Below are positions 27,168 through 32,122 of a stretch of DNA of 44,985 nt, one piece after another (position 1 is the first letter of the stretch; each line of letters begins with the position of its first letter). The DNA lies in assembly GCA_945872305.1 (NCBI GenBank), contig CAMCAC010000004.1, forward strand, positions 1 through 44,985, in the 5' to 3' direction. The position numbers and the translations under genes are program-made. The notes beneath the pieces were generated by a model. The model was given only the letters and a program-made list of their open reading frames with translations, did no database searches and was not told the DNA's origin. This DNA is from Candidatus Kuenenia stuttgartensis. Lineage in GTDB: Bacteria > Planctomycetota > UBA11346.

Positions 27168-28547
27168 TCAGCCCGCGGGCGGCGGGGTCGGCGGAGTGAT
27201 CTTGCCCAGGTAGCTGGGCAGTTCGATCCCGGCGTTGCGGGTGATCTCGTGCAGGGGCGGCAGGCTGCCGGCCAGGCCGCTCAGGAAGTCGGCGGTGCGG
27301 GTCTTGCCGTCGGGGCCGGTGGAGCCGTTGTCCCACACGGTGATCTTGTCGATCTTCACGCCGCTGATCGCCTTGACCTGCTCGGCGACCAGGAGCGGAA
27401 GCTGCTCGGTGACCATGAGCTGGGCCGCGGCCTTGGGGTCGCCGCCGGCGCTCATCACCAGGGCCTGGAGACCTTCGGCCTTCTTGACCAGGATGGCCTT
27501 CTGGCCTTCGGCCTGGGCTTCGAGGACGAGGCGGATGCCGTCCGCCTCGCCGCGCTTGAGCCGGCGGACCTTCTCGGCCTCGGCCTCGGCGAGGATCTCG
27601 ACCTTGCGCTTCTCGATCTCGGCGGCGACGACGATGGTGGCTACCTGTTCGGCCTCTTCGCGCTTGGCGCGCTGGCGCTCCGCCTGCTCCTCGGCGGCGT
27701 AGGCTTCGCGCAGGGCGTCGGCAGACTTCACCTTCTCGGCGGCGGTGCCCAGGCGGGTGGCCTCGGCCTCGCGCTCCTTGCGGCTCGCGTTCGAGTTGGC
27801 CATCTGCACCGCGGCCTCGTTCTCGCCCTGGACGGCGTTGGCGTGGGCGGCGGCGACCCGGATGCGCTTCTCGCGGTCGGCTTCGGCCTTGCCGATCTCG
27901 CCGTCGCGCTCTTTTTCCGCGACCTTGATCTTGGCGTCGTTGATGGCGCGGGCGGCGGCATCCTTGCCCAGGGCCTCGATGTAGCCGGACTCGTCGGTGA
28001 TGTCCTGGATGTTGACGTTGATCAGGCGCAGGCCGACCTTCTTCAGCTCGACCTCGACCCCCGACGAGATGTTGGCGACCAGCTTGTCGCGGTCGGCATT
28101 GATCTCTTCGATGGGCATGGTGGCGATGACCACGCGCATCTGGCCGAAGATGATGTCCTTGGCCAGTTCGGTGACCGACCGCTGGTCCATGGCGAGGAGG
28201 CGCTCGGCGGCGTTTTCCATGACCCCGGGATCGGTCGAGATGCCGACCGTGAAGGCGGACGGCACGTTGACCCGGATGTTCTGCTGCGACAGGGCGCCTT
28301 GCAGGTTGATCTCGATCGACATCGGTGCCAGGTCGAGGTAGGCGTAGTCCTGGAAGACCGGCAGCACGAAGGCGAGGCCGCCGTGGATGCAGCGGGCCGC
28401 CTTGCCCGTGGAGCCGAACTGCTTGCCGTAGACCACCAGGATCTTGTCCGACGGGCAGCGGCGGAAGCGCGATGCGATCCAGAAGAGGAAGGAGAGGATG
28501 ATCGCGATGCCGACAAGGATCGCGATCACCAGGGAGGAATCGAACAT
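27168..28547 (-). CDS. Flotillin-like SPFH-domain protein
   Basis: MFDSSLVIAILVGIAIILSFLFWIASRF TM segment, then SPFH domain (SDKILVVYGKQ...INVNIQDITDESGYIEALGKDAAARAINDAKIKVAEKERDGEIGKAEADREKRI). Confidence 0.95.
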   Translation of the reverse strand: MFDSSLVIAILVGIAIILSFLFWIASRFRRCPSDKILVVYGKQFGSTGKAARCIHGGLAFVLPVFQDYAYLDLAPMSIEINLQGALSQQNIRVNVPSAFTVGISTDPGVMENAAERLLAMDQRSVTELAKDIIFGQMRVVIATMPIEEINADRDKLVANISSGVEVELKKVGLRLINVNIQDITDESGYIEALGKDAAARAINDAKIKVAEKERDGEIGKAEADREKRIRVAAAHANAVQGENEAAVQMANSNASRKEREAEATRLGTAAEKVKSADALREAYAAEEQAERQRAKREEAEQVATIVVAAEIEKRKVEILAEAEAEKVRRLKRGEADGIRLVLEAQAEGQKAILVKKAEGLQALVMSAGGDPKAAAQLMVTEQLPLLVAEQVKAISGVKIDKITVWDNGSTGPDGKTRTADFLSGLAGSLPPLHEITRNAGIELPSYLGKITPPTPPPAG

Positions 28548-28558
28548 GGGGGGAGGTC

Positions 28559-29134
28559 TCAGGTCAGGGGTTCGACAAGGAGGATGGAGCGCTCGACCTG
28601 GCCGGCGACCCGGATCGGGAGCCCGGGAGCGAGCGGGGTGGTCGACCGGGTGAGGGCCTGGACGGTGCACAGGCGGCCCTGCACCTGGACCTCGACCTGG
28701 CCCATGCCGGTCTGGTTGGCAGGGATCGTCACGTAGACGGTGCCCACCACCCCGACCGCGTTGGCGTAGTCCAGGTTGCCGTTGGAATCCAGGCGCATCA
28801 TCGCCCGCATCATCCACACCAGGATGGCCATCAGGCCGATGCCCACCGCCAGGGCGATGGTGATGGCCAGCCAGAGCGGTGCCCCGTTGCTCAGGGCCGC
28901 GTAGCCGCTCCAGCCGAAGCCCGCCGCGAAGGCGGTCAGGGTGCGCACACTCAGATAGCCCATGCCGGAGGCATGGTCCCCGGCGAGGCCGCTGCCCAGG
29001 TCGCCGAGATGCATGTCCGCCCCGGCGAAGCCGATGAGCTGGAGCACCATCTGGGCGGCGACCACCATCGTCCCGATGATCGCGATGAGGAGGAAGACCT
29101 GGCGGGCCAGGTCGAGGGAGGTCCACCATTCCAT
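28559..29134 (-). CDS. NfeD-like membrane protein
   Basis: MEWWTSLDLARQVFLLIAIIGTMVVAAQMVLQLIG; several TM helices and a C-terminal OB-like domain (VGVVGTVYVTIPANQTGMGQVEVQVQGRL); paired with flotillin. Confidence 0.75.
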   Translation of the reverse strand: MEWWTSLDLARQVFLLIAIIGTMVVAAQMVLQLIGFAGADMHLGDLGSGLAGDHASGMGYLSVRTLTAFAAGFGWSGYAALSNGAPLWLAITIALAVGIGLMAILVWMMRAMMRLDSNGNLDYANAVGVVGTVYVTIPANQTGMGQVEVQVQGRLCTVQALTRSTTPLAPGLPIRVAGQVERSILLVEPLT

Positions 29135-29189: not shown

Positions 29190-30857
29190 TCACCGTGCTT
29201 CGGCGATGCGCAGATGGTGGATGCGCACCGGCACCGGGCGTGATCCCGCGGTCTTGCTGACCGCCCAGACATGCAGCCGCAGGGGCGCCGCCGGGAGGAC
29301 GACGACCCGGGGCCGGCCATCGATGGCGATGGCCAATTGGCCGCCCCAGGCGGCGACGGCGACCTCCGCAAGGGGTCGCGGCAGGGTGATCGCATCTCCC
29401 TCGACCGCAGCCAGACCCGGGCCCGGCCTGTCCGCCCGGCCGATGATGGCCTGGACCACGCCGAGATCACGCAGGCTGATGGTGATGAATCCCTTGGCGG
29501 TCTCGATGGCAAGACCGCCACCATCTGGACGCAGGTCCCCGTCCGGGGTCAGGTCCACGGTGGCGGTCAGACGCCAGGGGCGGTCGGGCAGCGGCACCGA
29601 CGCGGACCCGCCGACCCCGCTGATCCCCTCGTCCTCGTCCGGGTCGGCGAGCCAGCGGGCGTCGTCGGCCATGGTCCACGATCCGAGCCGGGCCGTGAGA
29701 TCCCGGGGCAGGAGGATCTGTTCCGGCGCCCAGGCGGGTTCGCGATCCAGGGCTGCCATGACGGGATGGGGCGGCGGCGCGGCCGGGACCTCGGGGGGCG
29801 GCGTGACGGCGGCGGCCGGTGCCGGGGTGGATTGGTCCGACTGCCCCCGGACCGCGACAGCGATGGCCACGATGAGCACCGCCGCGACCACGGCGATGCC
29901 GGACCCGATCAGCGCGGCCCGCCGCCAGGGCACCCGGGGATCCTCGGGCAGCGGTTCCGAGCCCATGCGCGCCGCCTCGATGAGGGCGAGGCAGGCGGCC
30001 CAGGTGGGTGGCCGACGATCCCGTTCCCGATGCAGCAGGGCGGTGAGCAGGCCGGCGGTGGCCGGGGACAGGTCCGGACGCAGGCCGACGACCGACGGCG
30101 CCTCGCCGGACATCTTCTGCGCCACGATCTGGCCGAGGGTGGTCCCGGTGAAGGCCACCATGCCGGTGAGCGCGTAGTAGAGGGTGCAGCCAAGCCCGTA
30201 CATGTCGGCCCGGGCGTCGACCGAATCCGGATCGGAAAATTGCTCCGGGGCCATGGTTGCCGGGGTGCCGACCACCGCCCCCGCCATGGTCAGGGAGGTG
30301 TCGCGGCCCGCCTCCTGGGGCCGGGCCAGGCCGAGGTCCACCAGCTTGGCGATCCATCCGCCACCGCCCTCCGCCAGGAGCACGTTCTCCGGCTTCACAT
30401 CACGATGGATCACGCCACGGCCGTGGGCGTGGGCGAGACCCTCGGCGACCTCCCGGGCCAGACGAAGGCCGTCCGCCTCGGTGAGCGGTCCGTCCCGTTC
30501 GATTTTGGCCTTGAGGCTGGGACCCTCGATGAACTCCATGACCAGGTAGGGGCTGCCATCCGGCAGGGTGCCCGCATCATGGCATGCGACGACGTGGGGA
30601 TGCTGGAGACTGGCCAGGATGCGCGCCTCGCGCTCGAAGCGGCGGACGAAATCCCGACCCGCCTCGCCGGCGGGGACGAGGAGCGTCTTCACCGCCACCG
30701 AGCGGTCGAGGAAGGTGTGGCGGCCTCGCCACACCGCCCCCATGCCGCCACGGCCGATGATCCCCTCCATCCGCACCTGAGGCACCACCGGGGCCACGGT
30801 CCCGCCGACCACCGGCTGCCGGTCGCTGATCCGGGTCTGGTCCATGGATCCGCTCAC
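29190..30857 (-). CDS. Membrane-anchored eukaryotic-like Ser/Thr protein kinase
   Basis: IIGRGGMGAVWRGRHTFLDRSVAVKTLL...HRDVKPENVLLAEGG...VDLGLARP...GTPATMAPEQF; TM AALIGSGIAVVAAVLIVAIAVAV; extracytoplasmic C-terminal domain. Confidence 0.95.
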   Translation of the reverse strand: MSGSMDQTRISDRQPVVGGTVAPVVPQVRMEGIIGRGGMGAVWRGRHTFLDRSVAVKTLLVPAGEAGRDFVRRFEREARILASLQHPHVVACHDAGTLPDGSPYLVMEFIEGPSLKAKIERDGPLTEADGLRLAREVAEGLAHAHGRGVIHRDVKPENVLLAEGGGGWIAKLVDLGLARPQEAGRDTSLTMAGAVVGTPATMAPEQFSDPDSVDARADMYGLGCTLYYALTGMVAFTGTTLGQIVAQKMSGEAPSVVGLRPDLSPATAGLLTALLHRERDRRPPTWAACLALIEAARMGSEPLPEDPRVPWRRAALIGSGIAVVAAVLIVAIAVAVRGQSDQSTPAPAAAVTPPPEVPAAPPPHPVMAALDREPAWAPEQILLPRDLTARLGSWTMADDARWLADPDEDEGISGVGGSASVPLPDRPWRLTATVDLTPDGDLRPDGGGLAIETAKGFITISLRDLGVVQAIIGRADRPGPGLAAVEGDAITLPRPLAEVAVAAWGGQLAIAIDGRPRVVVLPAAPLRLHVWAVSKTAGSRPVPVRIHHLRIAEAR

Positions 30858-32122
30858 GGCGCGCCCACCGGAGGCAGTACCTCAAGCAGATCTTCGACGC
30901 TTGGCCGGTCGGTCTTGTCCTGACCGACATGCGCATAGGTGATCCGGCCGTCCGGCGCGACCACCAGGGCGGTGGGTTTGGCCACCGAGTCCTCGACCCG
31001 GAGGCCACGGACGAGGCCCAGATCCACGTCCAGGCACACCGGCATCGGAGGCGGATCCCGGCGCAGGGTCTGCACCGCCCTGATGAAGGCGGGGATGGTC
31101 TCGCTGGGTCCGGGGAACACGACCACCACCTCGGCGCCCCGGGCGCGGAAGCGGGGCAGCGCATCCGCCAGGGCGGCGGTCTGCGCCGCGCAGTAGATGC
31201 AGATCTGGCCGGAGAAGCCCCGTTGCAGCACCAGCACCACCGACCTCCCATCGCGGTTGAGGGCGGCGACATCCACCACCCCGCCATCGGCGGCGAGGAA
31301 CCGGGTTCGCGGGAGGGCCGTTCCGACCAGGGGGGATGGCTTCCGCACCGGTGGCGGAAGCGCATCATAGCCGGAAGGATCGTAGGCCTGTCCTGCGGCC
31401 CGGGCCAGGATGACCTTGGCGACCCGTTCCTCGGCCACGGTCCAGAAGCCTGGGATGACCGGGGCGCTGGTGGGCAAGGGCTCGCTGGGGGGCCGTTGCT
31501 GGGCGAGGGATGGCTCCGGTGCGGGCGGAACCGGAACCACGGAGGGAGGGTCCGCCGGGGTGGTCACCACCGCGGCGGTGGCCGGTGAAGCCCCGAGGTC
31601 CTCGATCCGATCGATGCCGTCCCGCCACGGTCCCACCCGCAGACCGCGGTCGTAACGGCCGTCGGCGACCAGCCGGCCTTCGGCATCCCACTGCCGCCAG
31701 GACCCATGCCGGACACCGTCCTGGAAGGAACCGTCACCCGCCAGCCGGCCATCGGGATGGTACCACGACCAGGCCCCGCTCTGGCGGTCGTCCACATAGA
31801 CGCCGCGTTCCGCCACCACGCCGCCGGGGTGGAACCGTGTCCACTCGCCCTGACGCAGGCCACCCACGAACGCGCCGGTCCGCGAGGGACTCCCATCGGG
31901 ATGGTACCAACTCCACATGCCATTGGGTTTGCCCATCATGTAGACTCCGCTGGATTCCATCCGTCCTTCGCGGTCGTGATAGGTCCATGCACCGTTGGGT
32001 TGGCCTCCCTCCACCAGACCTGAGCGCCGAGGCTGACCATCGGGCCATGTCTCCGCCACCATCCGCGGACCTCCGCAGCCAGCGAGTGCGACGAGGAGCA
32101 GACAGGGTGCCAGGCGGAGCAT
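30854..32122 (-). CDS. Lipoprotein with MORN-type repeats fused to a C-terminal peroxiredoxin/redoxin-like domain
   Basis: Lipobox MLRLAPCLLLVALAGCG; repeats GAWTYHDREGRMESSGVYMMGKPNGMWSWYHPDGSPSRTGAFVGGLRQGEWTRFHPGGVV; C-terminal VVLVLQRGFSGQICIYCAAQTAALADALPRFRARGAEVVVVFPGPSE with CxxC. Confidence 0.85.
   Translation of the reverse strand: MLRLAPCLLLVALAGCGGPRMVAETWPDGQPRRSGLVEGGQPNGAWTYHDREGRMESSGVYMMGKPNGMWSWYHPDGSPSRTGAFVGGLRQGEWTRFHPGGVVAERGVYVDDRQSGAWSWYHPDGRLAGDGSFQDGVRHGSWRQWDAEGRLVADGRYDRGLRVGPWRDGIDRIEDLGASPATAAVVTTPADPPSVVPVPPAPEPSLAQQRPPSEPLPTSAPVIPGFWTVAEERVAKVILARAAGQAYDPSGYDALPPPVRKPSPLVGTALPRTRFLAADGGVVDVAALNRDGRSVVLVLQRGFSGQICIYCAAQTAALADALPRFRARGAEVVVVFPGPSETIPAFIRAVQTLRRDPPPMPVCLDVDLGLVRGLRVEDSVAKPTALVVAPDGRITYAHVGQDKTDRPSVEDLLEVLPPVGAP

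Follow-up and report, generated by a model that had tools for sequence, protein, structure and literature searches.

What does an exported redoxin do in the envelope of a planctomycete, and with which partner does it act? The question is raised by one gene in the window, i.e. the whole stretch of 44,985 nucleotides analysed here, which belongs to a planctomycete assembly that is 78.65% complete. A sequence-only reading of this gene described a lipobox, MORN-type repeats, a proline-rich linker and a redoxin domain with a CxxC motif, and proposed that the repeats may position a thiol peroxidase or reductase at an envelope surface. The reading left out the translationally coupled Ser/Thr kinase, although no feature of the locus is more informative.

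The gene (30854..32122, minus strand, as are all features below) is a stop-free open reading frame of 422 amino acids, and its product exceeds the Pfam cut-offs for MORN_2 (35.5 bits; gathering cut-off 29.6), AhpC-TSA (40.5 bits; cut-off 26) and Redoxin (33.8 bits; cut-off 26.6). Its sequence begins with a lipoprotein signal peptide (32075..32122), whose lipobox, LAGC, predicts lipidation at Cys16. Residues 20-168 (31619..32065) compose the MORN_2-type β-hairpin repeats, as indicated by Pfam, the AlphaFold2 model and a structural match to MORN1. These are followed by a proline-rich linker (residues 169-226) and a conserved WTxxE helix (about residues 227-243 in the alignment, 229-242 in the model), together covering 31394..31618, and by a thioredoxin-fold redoxin domain (residues 264-416; 30875..31333), which was recognised by Pfam, AlphaFold2, Foldseek and a profile search of PDB sequences. 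The active-site motif CIYC spans residues 308-311 (31190..31201), and a DRP signature lies close to the C-terminus (30902..30910); Cys308 and Cys311, as well as the Arg and Pro of the signature, are retained in 57/57 aligned relatives.

The AlphaFold2 model has a mean pLDDT of 81.8, with low confidence from about residue 182 to 224. It contains a run of β-hairpins over residues 20-168, followed further on by a thioredoxin fold in which the CxxC motif sits at the N-terminus of helix 309-320. Foldseek matched the model to MORN1 structures (6t69 and 6t6q) and to ResA and peroxiredoxins (1su9 and 7kuu), with E values of about 1e-7 to 1e-6. When the redoxin domain was used in the profile search of PDB sequences, ResA ranked at the top (E 5.6e-9), and the pneumococcal Etrx structures 2yp6, 4hqz and 4hqs were also picked up. 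The closest NCBIfam models, a SelL-related redox protein and, over the repeats, the LIC20035 adhesin, both scored far under their cut-offs. The architecture read from the letters is thus borne out by sequence, Pfam, AlphaFold2 and Foldseek, including two of the checks suggested with it: the HMM search returned both MORN_2 and AhpC-TSA, and the predicted structure has the redoxin fold. The protein is predicted to be a lipid-anchored, exported thioredoxin-like protein on a repeat stalk.

Several known redoxins resemble it in part. ResA/TlpA proteins share the thioredoxin fold, the CxxC at the start of a helix, the cis-Pro and the membrane anchoring outside the cytoplasm, whereas the window family is distinguished by its RGFxGxxCxxC context, its DRP end, a stalk of MORN or other elements, and a location next to a kinase gene rather than cytochrome c biogenesis genes. 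Etrx1 and Etrx2 of pneumococci are likewise thioredoxin-fold surface lipoproteins, but their partners are CcdA and MsrAB2 (PMC3914529). The model for SelL-related redox proteins (NF040769) is matched by all 23 aligned redoxin members, although the window domain, at 40.7 and 44.9 bits, does not reach its cut-off of 120 bits. In contrast to the SelL-related and Prx-like selenoproteins with UxxU or UxxC (PMC9312934), the window protein has Cys instead of Sec, a lipoprotein stalk and a kinase partner. Separately, a single in-frame TGA was observed in a number of weaker redoxin matches (G064:C180, G319:C278, G177:C57, G271:C1, G076:C1, G184:C2 and others); these are possibly Sec-containing proteins of the SelL type, as candidates only. 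The five of them that were fetched (L148-L152) have no kinase alongside.

The kinase gene (29190..30857; 555 amino acids; Pkinase 144 bits) starts with a GTG at 30857 that overlaps the TGA stop of the redoxin gene in the sequence GTGA, and similar stop/start overlaps occur at several other loci, in several lineages. Its catalytic domain (30006..30767), identified by profile match and sequence, contains HRDVKPEN, DLG and APEQ; with the Lys, HRD and DFG/DLG residues and one membrane helix, the protein is a Hanks-type receptor Ser/Thr kinase. A modelled helix of hydrophobic sequence at residues 311-335 (29853..29927) is the single transmembrane segment, and the C-terminal β-domain (29193..29732 in the model) is predicted to be extracytoplasmic.

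This β-domain is perhaps similar to ConA or 3-keto-disaccharide hydrolase domains, since 4/19 members weakly resemble PF06439, the 3-keto-disaccharide hydrolase domain. The ectodomain profiles of the window's family and of a distant group could be aligned over 156 columns with an hhalign probability of 93.7. When the ectodomain was searched by profile against PDB sequences, no hit fell below E 0.1, and Foldseek with the whole kinase was dominated by matches to the catalytic domain and did not identify the ectodomain fold. The ectodomain has no cysteine in the window, and the last 190 residues of the paired kinases lack cysteine in 22/51; judging from these sequences, no cysteine is conserved there.

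In an initial set of loci, a Ser/Thr kinase gene came next on the strand of the redoxin gene wherever the redoxin had a good score, apart from L051. To what extent the two genes belong together was then evaluated by applying a domain profile to 392 Planctomycetota genomes and fetching the neighbourhoods. The redoxin scores are bimodal, with 56 domains at 148-225 bits and the next one at 110; the profile came from 23 known members, all of them paired, so that for these the bimodality is in part built in, while the members newly added by the survey are independent of it. The 56 family redoxins span 16 family codes, counted from handles. Where downstream sequence is present (L125, at a contig edge, was left out), the kinase gene follows directly on the same strand in 54/55. 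This includes L049, in which the catalytic domain begins 1.2 kb in, yet the open frame of the kinase overlaps the redoxin stop. The exception is L051, where the kinase lies about 3 kb downstream with other frames between; one of these, at L051:5784-6416 and immediately ahead of the kinase, is sigma-factor-like. For the more distant, lower-scoring redoxins, no kinase was found downstream within the stretch fetched (0/19). As far as these sequences indicate, close redoxin relatives across Planctomycetota almost always directly precede a membrane Ser/Thr kinase gene.

Chance adjacency is ruled out, because the 54 kinase-domain matches in the 2.9 Mb genome of the window would produce it in a few percent of cases at most. 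So is a longer conserved operon, as no third gene is kept beside the pair. The window's kinase gene is followed on its strand by genes for a Band_7/SPFH protein (27171-28547) and a small membrane protein (28562-29134); these are not shared by the loci of relatives. The distances among redoxins and among kinases correlate (r 0.77), although common descent alone would also yield a correlation.

The pairing is selective for one type of kinase. In 16 of the 23 genomes of the window's family, a single kinase, encoded at the redoxin locus, reaches 380-730 bits with the full-length profile, and every other kinase in the 23 genomes stays at or below 314 bits. The profile match extends to the end of the ectodomain in 13/16; the other three (G005, G011 and G016) have ectodomains that have diverged too far for it. 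One further genome, G004, has the redoxin and a kinase cut by a contig end, and the six without a redoxin match (G001, G006, G007, G008, G018 and G022) also lack the paired-type kinase; in G022, the N-terminal half of the lipoprotein lies at a contig end, so its apparent absence carries no weight. Since most of the genomes are incomplete assemblies, absences are soft in general. In 98 genomes, the ectodomain profile matches almost only paired kinases, an exclusivity that holds for the nearer families only because many distant paired kinases fall under its threshold. The remaining matches are one degenerate kinase copy and two short open frames that lack an intact kinase, G004:C123 close to the start of a contig and G020:C570 close to the end of one. 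In the degenerate copy, L153:3086-4624 in G002:C50, the ectodomain is that of the paired kinase and the catalytic residues are altered; no redoxin was found near it within the 7.2 kb fetched.

Conservation of the redoxin lipoprotein extends over the window's family and further out. In an alignment of 18 sequences, Cys16, Cys308 and Cys311 do not vary. Across a larger alignment of 57 domains, 56 from the family and one from a distant relative, the CxxC is universal and the cis-Pro position is kept in 56. A lipobox is present in 50/52 full-length members, i.e. those with an open 5' side; it was called by a simple rule of hydrophobicity and motif, and signal peptides and lipidation are therefore predicted. 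When genome contigs were scanned with the single window protein, no relatives appeared; the closer alignment picked out 19 loci, almost all of them in records with planctomycete titles. That alignment matched no relatives on viral contigs, and a plasmid scan matched the repeat region only. The searches beyond Planctomycetota used patterns derived solely from the window's family.

Between the lipid and the redoxin lie MORN repeats, coiled coil, a short linker or a truncated haemoglobin, depending on the member, although the lipobox, the CxxC and the kinase neighbour remain constant. MORN repeats were matched by Pfam in the window's family, L051, L053 (under the cut-off) and L121, and seen by eye in L128 and L131; coiled-coil-like segments in other members were also judged by eye. 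In L046:9056-10294 (G064), a bacterial-like (truncated) globin (45.6 bits; cut-off 21) replaces the MORN repeats and is fused to the redoxin, with the kinase still next to it. The stalk in the redoxin frame of L118 (G124) consists of about eight near-identical copies of NDDKAAMMDKVANA.

Because relatives exchange the repeats for coiled coil, short linkers or globin, the earlier idea that the repeats place the domain at the envelope survives at most as positioning; anchoring falls to the lipid, the predicted anchor. In one study, MORN1 of trypanosomes and apicomplexans was found to form a dimeric rod and showed no membrane binding (PMC7725318), so that a stalk fits better than a membrane anchor, with the reservation that MORN1 proteins are eukaryotic.

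We tentatively favour the interpretation that redoxin and kinase compose one envelope signalling module in which the lipoprotein is a lipid-anchored, extracytoplasmic redox co-receptor. The lipoprotein would be exported and lipid-anchored, carrying its CxxC thioredoxin-like domain on a stalk, which is made of MORN repeats in the window. The co-translated kinase would cross the inner membrane, having the catalytic domain on the cytoplasmic side and the β-domain on the other. The thiol state of the redoxin, or its engagement of an oxidised envelope substrate, may alter contact with the kinase ectodomain and thereby change Ser/Thr phosphorylation in the cytoplasm. We infer the contact, the redox activity and the direction of the signal; the conserved pairing can also reflect co-regulation without contact. 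Simple or general disulfide exchange with the ectodomain is disfavoured, and the lack of conserved cysteines there argues for non-covalent signalling. Phosphorylation of the exported redoxin by the kinase is not expected, because the redoxin is predicted to be outside the inner membrane and the catalytic domain inside. In a broader form, which we regard as possible but hold with some reserve, a widespread two-gene receptor of Planctomycetota would sense thiol redox through its CxxC redoxin lipoprotein and directly control the kinase, with exchangeable stalks, one of them a truncated haemoglobin, tuning reach or input.

The chief rival to a signalling module is a merely co-expressed reductase, in which the redoxin is itself the effector, an Etrx- or ResA-like thiol-disulfide reductase that repairs oxidised envelope proteins with electrons from a DsbD/CcdA-type protein, and the kinase, sharing only the operon, senses a separate cue such as a glycan. 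The best solved relatives by profile, ResA and peroxiredoxins together with pneumococcal Etrx, speak for it, as do the cooperation of the Etrx surface lipoproteins with CcdA and MsrAB2 (PMC3914529) and the weak likeness of 4/19 kinase ectodomains to a 3-keto-disaccharide hydrolase domain. In its favour, too, a DsbD_TM gene is present elsewhere in the window's genome, although many genomes have a DsbD-type electron donor. However, a CcdA, DsbD or MsrAB gene is never a conserved neighbour, and the pairing is limited to one kinase type; we consider this explanation rather unlikely. An envelope thiol peroxidase, as the sequence-only reading allowed, seems improbable. The AhpC-TSA and Redoxin matches, and 1-Cys peroxiredoxins among the close structural matches, agree with the peroxiredoxin-type thioredoxin fold of the protein, but the catalytic PxxxTxxC of AhpC/TSA proteins is absent from the family alignment, which reads RGFxGxxC with Arg and Gly at the Pro and Thr positions, while the CxxC is invariant. 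The absence of PxxxTxxC favours a CxxC oxidoreductase over a peroxidase.

The lipoprotein might also serve as a docking partner or spacer for the kinase, with redox chemistry irrelevant. The precedent is NlpE of E. coli, a CXXC lipoprotein that activates the inner-membrane kinase CpxA although its CXXC is dispensable, so that the signal does not necessarily lie in a CxxC (PMC6538781). The region from lipid to redoxin is indeed exchangeable, but both active-site cysteines are invariant over 57 divergent sequences, and we would be surprised if their chemistry were irrelevant. NlpE is moreover lipocalin-like, a fold not seen in the window model of MORN repeats and a thioredoxin fold, and CpxA is a histidine kinase. 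Compared with PknB of Mycobacterium tuberculosis, the nearest catalytic fold, the window kinase likewise has one membrane helix and an external domain, but the latter is a β-domain in place of PASTA repeats, and a redoxin is its operon partner. PknE has a DsbG-like external domain.

Papers on the redoxin-kinase pair were not found in the literature searched, mostly outside subscription journals, and a planctomycete kinase phylogeny (PMC11032199) does not mention thioredoxin, AhpC, MORN, neighbor, operon or LamG. The pairing of redoxin and kinase suggests an undescribed system in which redox chemistry on the outer side of the cell membrane is coupled to signalling within the cell. Planctomycetota genomes can hold dozens of Ser/Thr kinases, and to our knowledge the inputs that these sense are largely unknown. 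A conserved extracytoplasmic partner is a candidate input for one kinase family, and its two cysteines are directly testable. If the interpretation is true, redox state would be linked to Ser/Thr phosphorylation across the membrane through a lipoprotein instead of a fused sensor.
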